Source: Bacteroidia bacterium
GTDB taxonomy: Bacteria; Bacteroidota; Bacteroidia; Bacteroidales; Marinilabiliaceae
DNA length: 34,468 nucleotides
Assembly (NCBI GenBank): GCA_030526155.1
Contig: JAUNDI010000014.1
Location: 1 to 34,468, forward strand
Direction of reading: 5' to 3'
Positions within the stretch are counted from its first letter, which is position 1. The number at the start of each line of letters is the position of its first letter. Of this stretch, positions 20,938-33,645 are shown piece after piece. A program made the translations under genes and the position numbers. A model generated the notes under the pieces. It did not search any database. It saw nothing but the letters and a program-made list of their open reading frames with translations, and was not told the origin of the DNA.

Positions 20938-20991
20938 CAAAGATATGGCTGTTTCCGCACCCCACAAAAGACAAAACGGCATGTAAATGGT
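20938..20991 (-). promoter_or_regulatory. Rubrerythrin promoter with ACCAT-N4-ATGCC element
   Basis: On the minus strand TTTG (20968-20965), a 19-bp spacer and TATCTTTG (20945-20938) match the consensus perfectly. Immediately upstream, at 20991-20978, the minus strand reads ACCAT, 4 bases, ATGCC. The same arrangement and orientation precede the thioredoxin and flavodiiron genes. The upstream position would suit an activator (inference). Confidence 0.7.
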
Positions 20992-21089
20992 AGATTTCTG
21001 CATAGGGCTATAATATACTATCGCTATGCCGTAATTTACTATGGCATGGTGGGAGTGATGCGGTATTTTGATTATTCTTCTGCAATTTT

Positions 21090-21489: not shown

Positions 21490-22654
21490 ATGAAAGGTAT
21501 CGATTTTTTCAAAAGAAACTCCAAAGCTAACATTCCAGATAAGTGCACTTGGATTTACTGGGCCGCATCTATCATATTGGCAATAATAGGATCTCTATTT
21601 ACAACAAAATATGCCCTAAGAGTCACGTCGTATTATCAGGTAATAAGCATATGCTATTTCTGCATTTACTTAATTACTATTTGGGCTATCCTAAAAAGAA
21701 AAATAGTAGATAGAGTAACAATCACACCTACACTATTATATGTAAGTTTGGCTCTATTTGCAGCTATAATGATAGCCGTTCAATACTACTTAGATCCAAT
21801 GCAACTAAAGGTAGACCGCTGGTCGGCATTGGCATTTCCTATTAGAAATTTGCTAAATGGCGAATTCCCATATACCGCAAAAACACACCTTGACGGATAT
21901 GGTTCGCCATTCCCTATTTGGCAATTATTTCACATACCATTTTACTTTTTGGGAAATGTCGGACTATCAGGAATAGTTACTTGTGTCTTATTCATCATAT
22001 CAATTAAATATCTGCTAGGATATAAGGATGCATTAATAGGAATGATAATTGTAGCATTATCTATTAGTGTCTGGTACGAAATAGCTGTTAGAAGTGATCT
22101 GATAACAAACTTTTTTTCTTCTTGCAATATTTATTATCGTACTTATCAAAAAAAACATCACATTTAAGGATCATCCTATCTCGCTCTCTATAATATGTGG
22201 TCTATGGCTATCAACACGAGTCTCCACAATGTTGCCACTCTATATACTATTCTTACCTGATTGGATAAAATTACCATGGAAATATAAGGTTCTTACACCA
22301 ATAATTGTAATATTAACGTTTATAGCAACATTCATACCTCTCGCAATTTGGGATATTGAAGCTTTATTTCATAAATACAATCCTTTTATTCTCCAATCGC
22401 GTCAGGGGCATATAGAGGATGTTGTCATTATGCTCGTAGTAACAACAATATTGGCATTAAGAACCAAAAACACATCACAATATTTCTTCTACTCTGGAAT
22501 AGTACTGATACTATTGCCAACTATAGCTTACGGCAACAAAATGATACAGAGTAGCGAACCATTAAACATTTTTGATAGCTGGTGCGACATTACATATCTC
22601 GATACATCTATTCCGTTCTTAGTAATGTCGATATTATTATACAACAGGAAATAA
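21490..22654 (+). pseudogene. Multi-pass membrane protein (GT-C-like) split by a T7-tract frameshift
   Basis: The first frame runs 225 codons from ATG 21490 to a stop at 22165-22167. From the T7 run at 22111-22117 the +1 frame continues without a stop to 22654 (frame starting at 22112). If the run were T6, one 387-residue protein with about 11 membrane helices would result. The joined sequence at the junction (NFFLLAIFIIVLIKKNI) is smoothly hydrophobic, while the unshifted reading ends in a polar tail. The first extracytoplasmic loop (LDPMQLKVDRWSALAFPIRN, then HLDGYGSPFPIWQLFHIPF) recalls GT-C or GT87-type polyprenol-sugar mannosyltransferases, but this is a weak resemblance. It could be a pseudogene, a phase-variable gene or a sequencing/assembly error. 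Confidence 0.75.
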
Positions 22655-22876: not shown

Positions 22877-23170
22877 CTAATACTTACTAATCACCTCTTT
22901 CAAGTCTGCTAGCCTCATAGCACCACTCTGTCGCCATACTACCTCGCCTTTCCTGAATAGCATGAGGGTAGGCACCGACTGGATATTATACTCTATGCAC
23001 AATGGCTCATTTTTATCTACATCAATCTTGATAATGCGTATCTTGTCGCCCATCTCCTCTTTCAACTCTTCTAGTACAGGGTGCATCATCTTACAGGGTC
23101 CACACCATGTAGCAAAGAAGTCTACTAAGGTCAGTTGGTCGCTATTTATTATATTCTTGAAGTTTTCCAT
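22877..23170 (-). CDS. Thioredoxin
   Basis: This 97-residue thioredoxin is a small cytoplasmic disulfide reductase. The ATG at 23170 (MENFKNIINSDQLTLVDFFA) gives the normal N-terminus. A longer in-frame reading to 23365 would run through the promoter and the neighbouring gene's control region. The active site FFATWCGPCKMMHP is at about residues 18-31 and the cis-proline loop YNIQSVPTLMLF near residue 68. It diverges from the flavodiiron gene across 185 bp that hold paired ACCAT-N4-ATGCC elements. This arrangement suggests shared control in oxidative stress. It is slightly shorter than the usual 104-108 residues, mainly at the N-terminus. Confidence 0.94.
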   Translation of the reverse strand: MENFKNIINSDQLTLVDFFATWCGPCKMMHPVLEELKEEMGDKIRIIKIDVDKNEPLCIEYNIQSVPTLMLFRKGEVVWRQSGAMRLADLKEVISKY

Positions 23171-23231
23171 ATTGTTTATCCGTTTAATATTTAATTGCAG
23201 TACAAAATTATACCACCTATCTCTTATCGCC

Positions 23232-23257
23232 AAAGATAAAATGGCATACAAATGGTG
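23232..23257 (-). promoter_or_regulatory. Thioredoxin promoter with ACCAT-N4-ATGCC element
   Basis: On the minus strand a perfect -7 box TATCTTTG (23239-23232) is preceded, 4 bases upstream, by ATGCC (23248-23244) and, after TTGT, by ACCAT (23257-23253). There is no TTTG at the -33 position. The element occupies the spacer, so a bound protein would touch RNA polymerase directly. Confidence 0.6.
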
Positions 23258-23281
23258 TTTTTCGGTATCACATATTTTTCT

Positions 23282-23322
23282 ACCATACAAATGCCGTATT
23301 TTACCATTAATTTGTACATTTG
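23282..23322 (+). promoter_or_regulatory. Flavodiiron gene promoter with ACCAT-N4-ATGCC element
   Basis: ACCAT (23282-23286), ACAA, ATGCC (23291-23295), 7 bases, then a second ACCAT (23303-23307) are followed by a perfect -7 box TACATTTG (23315-23322). The expected -33 position falls on ATGCC instead of TTTG. Confidence 0.6.
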
Positions 23323-24514: not shown

Positions 24515-25465
24515 ATGATTGATAATCTGACAGATAGATATAATACGGTATGTGCTGCGCCAAGGGGTAACGGCTTCAGGGTGGAGCACATGCCTGATTT
24601 TCTTATGCAGAGCGATATCGACGATTGCTCGCCTCATGTTCACGCATTCTACGAGATTCTTTGGTTTCAGAATGGTAATGGCCACCATACTGTCGATTTC
24701 GTTGATTACGAGGTAACGCCTAATACTATATTCTTCCTCTCTCCAGGTCAGATACACCATTTCGATCATAATGTAGATAAGAGTAAGAATATATGTAATT
24801 ATCAGGGACTTACCATTAAGATGTGTACTGACTTCCTACGTGATGAGGACTGTAATGGTAATGCTCTTCTGAAATATAACGCTTTCCATACTTTCGATAC
24901 CCTCCCTTTCTATAAGGTAGATGACGCTACCGCACAAGAGCTACAGCTGCTTGTGAGGCAGATGGAGGATGAGGCTAAATGTCATGGCGAGTTTGGTAAT
25001 ATAGAGATTCTAAAGGCTCTATTGCGTATCTTCTTGGTAAAGATTCAGCGTCATGGTAAGCAAGACGACCAACTACATCTAGATAATATAAAGTCGTCTC
25101 ACCAACTATTCGTCAATTTCCGCCGAATGGTCGACCTTGAGTATCGTCGCCTTCATACCGTACAGGAGTATGCCGATGGCCTTAATGTAGCCGTTCGTAC
25201 ACTTAACAAATGCGTTAATGAGTGCTCTCAGCAATCGCCACTATCCTTCATTAACGATCGTATCATACTCGAGGCCAAAAGAATGGTGCGTTATACCAAT
25301 ATGATGATAAAGGAGATAGCCTTTGAGCTAGGGTACGAAGATCCTTCGTATTTCGTCAAACTATTCAAACGCCAAACGGGGTACCTCCCATCTGATTTTC
25401 GCGAATTGGATACGGTGACAAAGACCTACTCTAAGTTACCATGCCCTTGTGAAACTTCAAATTAG
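24515..25465 (+). CDS. AraC-family transcriptional regulator
   Basis: The 316-residue regulator has a cupin-like sensor half (SPHVHAFYEILWFQNGNGHH and FFLSPGQIHHFD near residues 40-90). It ends in a C-terminal AraC double helix-turn-helix (QEYADGLNVAVRTLNKCVNE, then IKEIAFELGYEDPSYFVKLF, residues 220-290). The gene begins 4 bp after the flavodiiron gene stop, so it is co-transcribed with it. It could control that operon, the thioredoxin gene, or a distant target. Its ligand is unknown. A strong bidirectional terminator follows. Confidence 0.92.
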   Translation: MIDNLTDRYNTVCAAPRGNGFRVEHMPDFLMQSDIDDCSPHVHAFYEILWFQNGNGHHTVDFVDYEVTPNTIFFLSPGQIHHFDHNVDKSKNICNYQGLTIKMCTDFLRDEDCNGNALLKYNAFHTFDTLPFYKVDDATAQELQLLVRQMEDEAKCHGEFGNIEILKALLRIFLVKIQRHGKQDDQLHLDNIKSSHQLFVNFRRMVDLEYRRLHTVQEYADGLNVAVRTLNKCVNECSQQSPLSFINDRIILEAKRMVRYTNMMIKEIAFELGYEDPSYFVKLFKRQTGYLPSDFRELDTVTKTYSKLPCPCETSN

Positions 25466-25475
25466 CTATATCACA

Positions 25476-25515
25476 AAAAGAGCCGTTTCGTAAAATCTGA
25501 AACGGCTCTTTTGTT
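25476..25515. terminator. Bidirectional terminator between the AraC gene and the acetylesterase gene
   Basis: AAAAGAGCCGTTTC (25476-25489) pairs perfectly with GAAACGGCTCTTTT (25499-25512) around a 9-base loop. There are A runs before and T runs after, so it works for both converging genes. Confidence 0.9.
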
Positions 25516-28289: not shown

Positions 28290-28297
28290 TATCTTTG
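28290..28297 (+). promoter_or_regulatory. -7 box of the Nim-like gene
   Basis: TATCTTTG matches TAnnTTTG exactly and lies 20 bp before ATG 28318. It rules out a possible GTG start at 28297. No -33 TTTG is clear. Confidence 0.55.
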
Positions 28298-28317
28298 TGA
28301 ATAAATCATACATAACT

Positions 28318-28833
28318 ATGAGAAAAGAGAGCAGACAGATGAGTGCCGAGTGGGCTTTAGATGTCCTAGATCGCGCTCCATATATTACAGTAGGTATGAC
28401 AGATACAGATGGTCTACCCTACGCATTGCCATTGTCTTTGGCAAGAACAGACGATAAGACATTCTATTTCCATTGTGCTTTGGAGGGTAAAAAGATGGAT
28501 GCCCTAATAAAGAACCCAAATGTCTGTTTGAGTGCCGTAACTAAATGCAAACCTACAGTAGGCCCGCTAGACAATAGCTTTACCCTTGAATTTCAATCAG
28601 CCATAGCTTTTGGAAGAGCTAAGATTATTACCGACGAAACCGAGAAGATAGCTGCTCTACGTGCTATATGTGAACGTTTCTTACCAAAACATATGGACCA
28701 TTTCGACGAGGCTATATCAAGAAGTCTCTCACGTACAGCCGTAGTACGTATTACCCTAACAGAGCCACCCGTCGGCAAGCGCAAACAATACGATTCAAAG
28801 GGAGAAGAGATGAAATGGGGGCGCATGGAATAG
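28318..28833 (+). CDS. Pyridoxamine 5'-phosphate oxidase-family flavoprotein (Nim-like)
   Basis: From the ATG at 28318 the protein has 171 residues (MRKESRQMSAEWALDVLDRA). It has the split-barrel FMN-binding fold of the pyridoxamine-phosphate-oxidase superfamily: PYITVGMTDTDGLPYALPLS near residue 22, FYFHCALEGKKMDAL near 52, and SAIAFGRAKIITDETEK near 95. The overall layout and the FHCALEGKK segment match the 5-nitroimidazole-reductase (NimA-like) branch common in Bacteroidales. It probably uses FMN or a related cofactor. Whether it inactivates nitroimidazoles cannot be said, since most chromosomal members have unknown substrates. Its stop codon lies inside a terminator hairpin. Confidence 0.87.
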   Translation: MRKESRQMSAEWALDVLDRAPYITVGMTDTDGLPYALPLSLARTDDKTFYFHCALEGKKMDALIKNPNVCLSAVTKCKPTVGPLDNSFTLEFQSAIAFGRAKIITDETEKIAALRAICERFLPKHMDHFDEAISRSLSRTAVVRITLTEPPVGKRKQYDSKGEEMKWGRME

Positions 28834-29725: not shown

Positions 29726-29802
29726 GCAAACATTCCAATAATATATAGCTTTCATCTGAGTAAGATTATTTATATCCTTATCCACATTCTCAAAAAATAC
29801 CA

Positions 29803-29810
29803 TATATTTG
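29803..29810 (+). promoter_or_regulatory. -7 box of the CE1-like esterase gene
   Basis: TATATTTG fits TAnnTTTG and lies 33 bp before ATG 29844. No -33 TTTG at standard spacing. Confidence 0.45.
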
Positions 29811-29843
29811 CCCTCACTAGTATAACATAACACATCACATATC

Positions 29844-31314: not shown

Positions 31315-32271
31315 TTATCTCTTCAAACTATCAATCTCCACCAACCCATTAACTATCGCATATATCGTCAATCCAGCCGCACTATGTATCTGTAACTTCC
31401 TAGTTATATTCTTCCTATGTGTAATAACTGTATTAATAGTAATGCACAAATGCTCAGCTATCTCTTTGTTGCTCATCCCTTGTACAATGGCAACTATCAC
31501 ATCTTTTTCTCTGGCCGATAACAGATCTGCATCCTCCGCTCCCTCTGCATTGGCAAATGCTGATATAGCACTGCTTATCCTCTCTGTCTTTAATGTCTCT
31601 TCTAATCGCCTTACCAATGGTACAAATATACTGTCCTCTACATTCTGATGGTTGCCAAGCCACTCCTCATTATTATGTATTAGAAATAGTGTCGAGGTAA
31701 GCTTATTACTATTGTGAATATCACTTGGTAGATACTTTATCATGAGGCTCTTCAACTCCTTGAGGCTCTTGTCTGCTTCTGTATGGTGCTTCACAAAGGT
31801 ATCTATATTGTACGTGGCTGAGTATTTCCCTTGTATCAAATTCCTAACGTACGGAAAGAGCATCCTCTCTTCGTACTGCATATGTCTATTAATCTCTTTG
31901 GCATACTCGTCATACATCTGTAGTATGAGCTTGCCTAACTTGTCGTTGATATATATCGACTCAGATAGCTCTCGTCTTACAAATGGTAATTGGTAATCTG
32001 CATAATAATGGTGACAAGCTTCCAAGTATTTCAATAGCGTCTCTATAGATAGTGTCTCAATATCGTAGTTCGTTGCCCCATTAATCGTAAGATTCACTAC
32101 GGCCAAGAATGTCTTAGTATCTACTTTGTTAGATAAGCAGGTCTCCTCCACTGTCTTGTCGCCAAAACCAAGCGAAATGCCAAAGGCACTCAATGTCTGT
32201 AGTATATTGTAGTTGTCGTTAATGAGGTTTATCATCTTGTCCGACGCCTCATATATCTTTAGGGCTTTCAT
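31315..32271 (-). CDS. Hemerythrin-like sensor fused to a LuxR-type DNA-binding domain
   Basis: From the ATG at 32271 this is a 318-residue single-protein regulator. Residues about 75-225 look like a hemerythrin/RIC-type four-helix bundle with candidate diiron ligands. These are His in ACHHYYADYQLPFVRRE, H and E in INRHMQYEERMLFPYV, His in FVKHHTEADKSL, and H, H and E/D in FLIHNNEEWLGNHQNVEDSI. The C-terminal 65 residues are a LuxR helix-turn-helix (LSAREKDVIVAIVQGMSNKE, then TVITHRKNITRKL). It is not a two-component receiver. The fusion suggests oxygen, NO or redox sensing through a diiron site (inference). It has its own promoter 19 bp upstream. Confidence 0.85.
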   Translation of the reverse strand: MKALKIYEASDKMINLINDNYNILQTLSAFGISLGFGDKTVEETCLSNKVDTKTFLAVVNLTINGATNYDIETLSIETLLKYLEACHHYYADYQLPFVRRELSESIYINDKLGKLILQMYDEYAKEINRHMQYEERMLFPYVRNLIQGKYSATYNIDTFVKHHTEADKSLKELKSLMIKYLPSDIHNSNKLTSTLFLIHNNEEWLGNHQNVEDSIFVPLVRRLEETLKTERISSAISAFANAEGAEDADLLSAREKDVIVAIVQGMSNKEIAEHLCITINTVITHRKNITRKLQIHSAAGLTIYAIVNGLVEIDSLKR

Positions 32272-32289
32272 CGTATATCTATTTTCTTG

Positions 32290-32297
32290 CAAAAGTA
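32290..32297 (-). promoter_or_regulatory. -7 box of the hemerythrin-LuxR gene
   Basis: On the minus strand TACTTTTG fits TAnnTTTG and lies 18 bp before the start codon. No -33 TTTG was found. Confidence 0.5.
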
Positions 32298-32322
32298 ATA
32301 CTATCTCTCTTCCTATAAATAC

Positions 32323-33645
32323 CTATTTGTTGGTATTTTTTACAATACTCTTAATGCTTGGTATTAGCAGCACACCTCTCATTATCATAAATACTCCAAA
32401 TCCGCCCCACAAGGCCCACATCACATCATAACTCCACAATATCGCACCTGTCCCCACTCCTAATACACCAGAAATCCATACCGTTACCACCATCGCTCTT
32501 GTATTTGCAGCGCCAAGCATTATGCCGTCTTCTACAAATGCCATAAAGCTAAGTGATGTTATAATAATAATCCAATATATATACTCCTTTGCGTCTTCTA
32601 CTACCTCTATTGAGGCTCCTAACATTTGCAAAAATTGCGACCAACCTATAAGATAACATATAGCAACCACTATGCTCATCGCTCCACTCCACTTACCTAG
32701 TTTTACCATCATAGCTCTTAACTCTCCTCCCGAATCTCGTCCTATGTATTTCCCAGTAAGTGCCTCTGCTGCATAGGCTAATGCGTCTGATATATACGAG
32801 AATAGCATAAAGAATTGCATCAAACATGCTGTTGTAGCAAGCTCTGTTTGCCCCTCTTTGGCTGCAAATATGGTCATTGCACAATGTACCGCAACCAAGA
32901 CTATTGTCCTAAGGAAAATATCTACGTTTTTCTTTATAAAGTTATAGTAGCTTATATCTTCTGCCTCTCTCTCTTTTTCAATTCTCTGTTTTATAGCGGA
33001 TACCAACACCTTATCGCTCATCATACCTACCAACCATATACTTGTCCCTAAGTATTGCGCTACTACCGTTCCTAATGCTATCCCGTCTATTCCCATCCCC
33101 ATATTAATGGCAAATAGATAACTAAAAACAATATTGAAGATGTTCGATGCTATGGAGACTACCATGGGCAATTTTGCTTTCTGCATGCCTACCATCCATC
33201 CTTGCATGGCATAGCCTATTAATACTGCTGGTGCTGCCCAAATTCTAATCGAGACGTACGAGGCTGTTGCTGTAGTAAGCTGAAATACGTTGTCAGAACT
33301 TAATACCCAAACGGCAATATTCGTAATGTCTTCTCTAAATAGTAGAAATAATAGGCTAATCGCAACGGCTAGGTACACTCCTCTTAATAGTAGTTTCCTG
33401 CATACCGCCCAGTCTGCCCTACCATATGCCTGTCCCACCAATCCACTGGTAGCCATACGCAAAAAGGAGCAGTTCCAATACAAAAGATTGAAAACTGCTC
33501 CTCCTAATGCTATCGCGCCTATTCCTGAATCGCCTGCTACATGTCCAGCTATCGCTGTGTCTATAAGTCCCAATAGGGGTACCGTAATATTCGCTACGGC
33601 ATTGGGTATCGCTAGGCGAAGTATGGAACGACTTATATTACTCAA
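32323..33645 (-). CDS. MATE-family efflux transporter, DinF-like
   Basis: The 440-residue inner-membrane protein has about 12 helices and belongs to the MATE family, which exports drugs or metabolites using Na+ or H+ gradients. The family opening SRSILRLAIPNAVANITVPL, then GLIDTAIAGHV, is clear. The second half repeats the fold (about residues 230-430). The start codon is TTG at 33645-33643, overlapping the TGA stop of the upstream lipoprotein gene by 4 bases (TTGA). This implies translational coupling. No in-frame ATG would preserve the conserved N-terminus. The substrate is unknown. Confidence 0.9.
   Translation of the reverse strand: MSNISRSILRLAIPNAVANITVPLLGLIDTAIAGHVAGDSGIGAIALGGAVFNLLYWNCSFLRMATSGLVGQAYGRADWAVCRKLLLRGVYLAVAISLLFLLFREDITNIAVWVLSSDNVFQLTTATASYVSIRIWAAPAVLIGYAMQGWMVGMQKAKLPMVVSIASNIFNIVFSYLFAINMGMGIDGIALGTVVAQYLGTSIWLVGMMSDKVLVSAIKQRIEKEREAEDISYYNFIKKNVDIFLRTIVLVAVHCAMTIFAAKEGQTELATTACLMQFFMLFSYISDALAYAAEALTGKYIGRDSGGELRAMMVKLGKWSGAMSIVVAICYLIGWSQFLQMLGASIEVVEDAKEYIYWIIIITSLSFMAFVEDGIMLGAANTRAMVVTVWISGVLGVGTGAILWSYDVMWALWGGFGVFMIMRGVLLIPSIKSIVKNTNK

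Follow-up and report, generated by a model that had tools for sequence, protein, structure and literature searches.

A predicted two-way operator-promoter module occurring twice in an oxygen-defence gene cluster of a Bacteroidetes bacterium

Described operators and the gene cluster

At their operators, AraC-type proteins touch two boxes spaced by roughly one helical turn; they also often use half-sites repeated at 21 bp. The E. coli araI1-araI2 half-sites are direct repeats at this distance beside the promoter, and the RhaS layout consists of 17-bp arms 16-17 bp apart. The control regions described here resemble the RhaS/RhaR operators of the E. coli rhamnose genes in having an AraC/XylS-type regulator with a cupin-like sensor part and a site that overlaps or sits just upstream of the -35 zone; the RhaS site extends 4 bp into the -35 at rhaBAD and, at rhaT, stops 1 bp upstream of it (PMC9429829). 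Unlike the RhaS/RhaR operators, they have another sequence, a 25-bp gap between the arms, Bacteroidetes promoter boxes and oxygen-defence targets. Their elements have weak repeats at 21 bp, the distance seen at araI1-araI2, but these partners agree in just 5-7 of 10 positions, and the strong copies form inverted pairs whose centres are 39 bp apart. With regard to the genes concerned, the PerR regulon of Bacteroides thetaiotaomicron (PMC12596196) includes rubrerythrin and, by co-expression, thioredoxins, and the genes dealt with here likewise include a rubrerythrin and a thioredoxin; unlike in that regulon, the two control regions contain no PerR-like box and the motif is confined to one neighbourhood.

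The window, by which we mean the whole stretch of 34,468 nucleotides that was analysed, carries genes for a rubrerythrin (rbr), a thioredoxin (trx), a flavodiiron-type protein (fprA) and an AraC-type regulator (Table 1). Since araC starts 4 bp after fprA and a terminator-like hairpin of 15 pairs (25476-25512) lies behind it, araC probably belongs to the operon faced by the site E3; three such hairpin sites occur in the region against 3.3 expected. Between rbr and trx (21490-22654), a membrane-type protein is split into ORFs of 225 and 141 aa in different frames, for which no Pfam match was obtained, and the gene is possibly broken. At 28297-28833 there is a pyridoxamine-oxidase-fold gene that is Nim-like (NimABCDEF 86.5 bits, below the cut-off of 260), and in the congener G010 a very similar gene (L173, 1967-2482) is divergent from the trx ortholog.

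Table 1. Coordinates of genes, elements and promoter boxes in the window
Feature	Position	Strand	Remarks
rbr, rubrerythrin, 187 aa	20323..20886	-	Pfam PF02915, PF21349
rbr -7 box TATCTTTG	20938..20945	-	TTTG at 20965-20968, 19 bp upstream
Module copy 1, paired site	20978..21030		19/20 specified positions
E1 ACCATTTACATGCC	20978..20991	-	Faces rbr; exact match; one of three exact intergenic sites genome-wide
E4 ACTATCGCTATGCC	21017..21030	+	One mismatch; oriented opposite to the rbr-facing site; gap of 25 bp to E1
trx, thioredoxin, 97 aa from its ATG	22877..23170	-	Pfam PF00085; TIGR01068 above cut-off
trx -7 box TAATTTTG	23203..23210	-	In register with rbr box; TTTG at 23231-23234, 20 bp upstream
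Rival trx -7 box TATCTTTG	23231..23238	-	Box assumed in the preliminary description; contains TTTG 23231-23234
Module copy 2, paired site	23243..23295		20/20 specified positions
E2 ACCATTTGTATGCC	23243..23256	-	Faces trx; exact match
E3 ACCATACAAATGCC	23282..23295	+	Faces fprA; exact match; 25 bp from E2
Weak repeat ACCATTAATTTGTA	23303..23316	+	21 bp past E3 start, fprA -33 zone; 7/10 positions
fprA -7 box TACATTTG	23315..23322	+	No TTTG at -33; 19 bp from E3
fprA, flavodiiron-type protein, 384 aa	23356..24510	+	Pfam PF19583; flavorubredoxin models below cut-offs
araC-type regulator, 316 aa, candidate binder	24515..25465	+	Pfam PF12833, PF02311; 4 bp after fprA stop
Hemerythrin domain fused to LuxR-type DNA-binding domain	31315-32292		About 7 kb beyond araC

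Layout of the paired sites and their promoters

A preliminary description of this DNA had proposed a shared regulatory element, ACCAT and ATGCC separated by four bases, in the promoters of three oxygen-defence genes, rbr, trx and fprA. Our analysis supports this proposal. Exact occurrences of ACCATNNNNATGCC in the window are found at all three places (E1, E2 and E3), although the trx site, formerly given as 23244-23257, had to be moved by one base. A fourth copy with one mismatch, E4, had been missed and pairs with the rbr site E1. The asymmetry of the element is identical in all four sites, with the starts of ACCAT and ATGCC 9 bp apart, and its CAT-N4-ATG core is palindromic.

Both intergenic regions hold two sites that read outward across the same gap, and the geometry of E4 to E1 equals that of E3 to E2. 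The best match to the pair pattern GGCATN4ATGGT-N25-ACCATN4ATGCC in 2000 shuffles of the rbr region reached 15 of 20 specified positions, against the 19 and 20 observed. When up to three mismatches are allowed, the pair occurs only at these two places in its own genome, and the reversed control at one. We predict with considerable confidence that this is a real operator pair. Folding of the trx/fprA copy was no better than that of shuffles (z -0.09), and the rbr copy gave a z of -2.47, with 1 of 200 shuffles as good; a hairpin may thus form in the rbr copy, and is not common to both.

Bacteroides promoters have a consensus of TAnnTTTG at -7 and TTTG near -33, as given in PMC7366714, and the rbr and trx boxes with their TTTG fit it. 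The element ends 9 bp (rbr) and 8 bp (trx) upstream of the TTTG. Two trx -7 boxes are possible, TAATTTTG, which is in register with the rbr box, and its rival TATCTTTG. Element-to-box distances of about 4, 19 and 32 bp had been reported; those of 19 bp (fprA) and 32 bp (rbr) are retained, whereas that of trx, 4 bp, depends on the rival box and becomes 32 bp with the one in register. With the latter box, moreover, fprA is the only promoter that lacks a TTTG at -33, in place of the two promoters proposed before.

Aligning the two intergenic regions without gaps gave as best result a match over 118 bp with 72 identities and a score of 26, which was reached in none of 1000 shuffles (mean 11.5, maximum 18), and it holds the rbr and trx promoter boxes (-7 and TTTG) in register. 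Positions assigned to elements, flanks and boxes, parts that were assigned after the alignment had been viewed, are identical between the copies in 43 of 51 cases. Outside the assigned parts the identity is 29 of 67 (43%), against a mean of 28% and a maximum of 40% at 118 other offsets, an excess that points to the descent of both copies from one region. Given that the four-base gaps and the spacer taken alone show no significant identity (12 of 33, p = 0.18), the case for duplication rests mainly on the promoter flank. Judging from this comparison, the control region was rather probably duplicated within the cluster and its sites have been kept since. An alignment that runs ungapped over 118 bp, and outside the assigned parts as well, would also suit a recently duplicated promoter region that contains no operator, with the ACCAT and ATGCC blocks as leftovers; we regard this as improbable, since conservation is uneven between the assigned parts (assigned, again, after alignment) and the gaps and spacer, and since copying leaves the mirror image within each copy (E2 against E3, E1 against E4) unexplained.

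Occurrence in the genome and among relatives

The genome-wide scan proposed in the preliminary description was carried out on the source genome (2,595,310 bases in 85 contigs, 91% complete) and favours the claim of a shared motif. ACCAT-N4-ATGCC is matched exactly at 14 places and the reversed control pattern at 5; of the 14, 11 lie within ORFs of 260-829 codons, and the only three between genes are the rbr, trx and fprA sites, E1-E3 themselves being spanned by mechanically called ORFs that are upstream or out-of-frame extensions across the three gene starts. Since coding DNA in general contains this motif often, outnumbering the control is no proof by itself, and it is the intergenic place, the clustering and the pairing that carry the case. 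Extended by its flank (ACCATN4ATGCCRTTTT, up to two mismatches), the motif has 16 matches, in which the three sites score 0, 0 and 1 and the other 13 score 2; 12 of these 13 fall inside ORFs that were called mechanically with a minimum length of 70 codons, and the flank-extended reversed control gave 20 matches under the same limit. Within the window, 50 matches to the unextended motif with up to two mismatches were counted, against a mean of 29.6 in shuffles. A one-mismatch site at 29799-29812, which overlaps the -7-like box TATATTTG, was set aside.

The comparison of orthologous promoters, proposed alongside the scan, was negative for the fprA, rbr and trx upstream regions examined. No exact site was present upstream of 90 fprA homologs (350 bp where available; 10 plus the best 80 of 135, the window's own excluded). 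Three one-mismatch matches among these stretches (L021, L040, L067) lie 240-320 bp upstream and not at the place of E2/E3; for 31 of the 90 homologs the last 170 bases before fprA were inspected by eye. Neither exact nor one-mismatch sites were found in the 350 bp upstream of 14 other rbr copies (13 from congeners and the genome's own second copy, L120), which include those 91% and 87% identical, nor in the 350 bp upstream of two trx orthologs, from G010 (72%) and G012 (62%), the only two congeners with close ones.

Similar results were obtained with longer patterns. Among 393 sampled genomes of the order, the source included, the paired module with up to two mismatches occurs in four others, with one match each and always at two mismatches. 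In 70 other genomes of the family, ACCATN4ATGCCRTNTT has 23 matches, against 5 for the control; 21 are inside ORFs and two between genes, neither of which precedes rbr, trx or fprA as judged by ORF starts. A sequence model of the 123-bp module, scanned over the window, 58 of 193 loci and 15 genomes of the genus, gives 111 and 107 bits for the two copies. The highest score after these, 20.4 bits in G001, belongs to a match beside a tRNA-Met gene and was set aside. The rbr copy in reverse reading reached 19.7 bits; a further place in the source genome, which does not have the element, scored 15.2 bits, and the stretch upstream of the G010 trx, where no element is clearly present, 13.3 bits. Given the favourable genome-wide test and the negative ortholog comparison, the control region is local and lineage-restricted, and not a general oxygen-defence motif. 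That unrelated promoters resemble each other by chance is very unlikely: the frequency of the motif in coding DNA and the lack of sites at the orthologs examined (exact for fprA; exact or one-mismatch for rbr and trx) would agree with it, and the shuffle tests of pair and alignment, together with the uniqueness in the genome, speak against it.

The genes themselves are unevenly distributed. At a threshold of 1e-80, fprA was found in 8 of 14 congeners with 47-65% identity, and the best 80 of 135 homologs include some up to 83% identical in genomes named Prevotella and kin. The patchy occurrence of fprA and trx in congeners, along with the second rbr of the genome (C58, 77%), suggests that genes of the cluster may have been acquired laterally.

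Several other arrangements were observed in relatives. In L031 (3089-5155), rbr (87%) and fprA (79% identical) are divergent neighbours, a simpler arrangement than that of the window. A different mirrored motif, CTGAATTAA, about 26 bp and TTAATTCGG, was seen by eye before the fprA -7 box in five loci (L028, L029, L030, L032, L041). Also by eye, AATCCAAANATAAAAYGG-like units were seen in an array about 38 bp apart beside an ATPase-like gene of G011 (L198, about 1530-1690); reversed, every unit contains TATnTTTG, which looks like a -7 box, and is similar to the stretch CCATTTTATCTTTGG of the trx promoter. Neither the spelling ACCATNNNNATGCC nor the motif by topic was found in the open-licence PMC papers searched.

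Candidate binders and the proposed module

The AraC-type protein encoded after fprA appears to be the likeliest binder, a circumstantial assignment to which we would give an even chance. The protein combines a cupin-like sensor part with a DNA-binding part of the AraC type, and its nearest named models, HpaA and RhaS, are both far below cut-off (RhaS, the second-best NCBIfam match, at 63.6 bits against 288). None of the four sites is more than about 4 kb from araC, which encodes an AraC/XylS regulator next to them, and the site is asymmetric with two boxes about one helical turn apart, as is typical of this class. Weak partners 21 bp from each element match at 6, 5, 7 and 6 of 10 positions when the better side is taken; this spacing is joint first of 107 repeat distances, equal to 65 and near 81, 54 and 39, the module copies not being independent. 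The operon position and the weak repeats at this spacing fit the AraC-type protein as the likeliest binder.

Close homologs of this protein are rare and were detected in 2 of 14 congeners at E 1e-20, and at E 1e-70 in at least 2 of 392 other genomes of the order, with up to five candidates scored per genome. Homologs at 41-45% identity are found in G009, G010, G147 and G250. In G250 (L170), whose araC is 44-45% identical, the promoter contains two copies of ACCAT with a spacing of 21 bp, the latter in the form ACCATTTACAATCC, a pair that was noticed before being tested. This promoter has four ACCATT words in 503 bp against 0.54 expected, with as many in 1 of 1000 shuffles. The top site score in it is 11.4 (by shuffles, 33 in 1000), against a control maximum of 12.5, seen in at least 1 of 90 fprA upstream stretches, and we treat the resemblance as a lead only. 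Upstream of the G147 and G009 homologs no similar site was found, and the best site of the G010 homolog, with a score of 11.3, falls inside a neighbouring reading frame. In G009 the homologous gene lies behind one for a GH43 glycosidase rather than behind oxygen-defence genes. In a comparison that omitted the G010 homolog, the window's AraC stood apart from its homologs in the first recognition helix.

A real operator pair could also be bound by another regulator, the hemerythrin-LuxR protein, PerR, OxyR or a MarR-type protein, which we consider possible but unlikely. The palindromic core would suit a symmetric dimer, the hemerythrin-LuxR fusion gene lies about 7 kb past araC, and PerR is described as the rubrerythrin regulator in B. 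thetaiotaomicron (PMC12596196). Against this, sites of a global regulator would be expected in more than one neighbourhood, and they were found in this one alone; neither control region has a PerR-, OxyR- or NarL-like site. The PerR box is a TTATAATNATTATAA-like palindrome, the OxyR site ATAG-N7-CTAT, and the NarL-type LuxR site two TACYNMT heptamers in a 7-2-7 arrangement. The two control regions contain none of the 7 matches to the PerR-like palindrome (up to three mismatches; a consensus from Bacillus, which may not be the Bacteroidetes motif), none of the 3 exact matches to the OxyR consensus, and none of the 24 NarL-like matches (up to two mismatches), NarL-type sites alone representing the LuxR type. 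A CRP/FNR reading, with the same 5-4-5 layout, was dropped, as no HTH_Crp_2 domain in the 91% complete genome is above cut-off (best match 20.6 bits against 27). Among the binders named in the preliminary description, the adjacent AraC is favoured circumstantially, and nothing was found for OxyR or for the hemerythrin-LuxR protein, which is a conceivable binder.

The latter protein resembles the iron-sulfur repair RIC proteins, below cut-off. Just upstream of its gene, at 32317-32338, lies a palindrome AAATACC-N8-GGTATTT, NarL-like at one mismatch (TACCTATTTGTTGGTA), which is a possible operator of the hemerythrin-LuxR regulator or the possible end of a MATE gene.

Taking the AraC-type protein as the binder, the best explanation, for which we see the chances as balanced, would be a single operator-promoter module that is present twice and controls rbr, trx and fprA-araC. 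The module would consist of two 14-bp sites separated by 25 bp, in each of which ACCATN4ATGCC reads outward, and of Bacteroidetes-type promoter boxes on their outer sides. One copy, between trx and fprA-araC, would serve both directions, the other would act upstream of rbr, and the two probably arose by copying within the cluster. At each site the AraC-type protein would contact two 5-bp boxes about one helical turn apart, and it would thereby control trx, rbr and the operon in which it is itself encoded. At fprA, the site and the weak repeat 21 bp on fill the -33 zone, an arrangement that would suit an activator substituting for the contact at -33; activation is in this sense a prediction, as would be any response to oxygen. 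An AraC-type operator pair is a mechanism of a known kind, of which the module is most likely a lineage-restricted member. More tentatively, the cluster might form a self-contained oxygen-defence switch, in which an AraC-type sensor coupled to fprA and a copied two-way operator would provide joint control of fprA, trx and rbr and replace PerR/OxyR in one lineage.

If another protein binds the pair, this would be an ordinary local operator. Two regions, four sites and one candidate protein make up a small and precise test system. If the AraC-type protein binds it, the cluster would represent a case, from a bacterium of the Bacteroidetes, of an AraC regulator linked to oxygen or redox state, with a small regulon built by copying a two-way control region between neighbouring genes.
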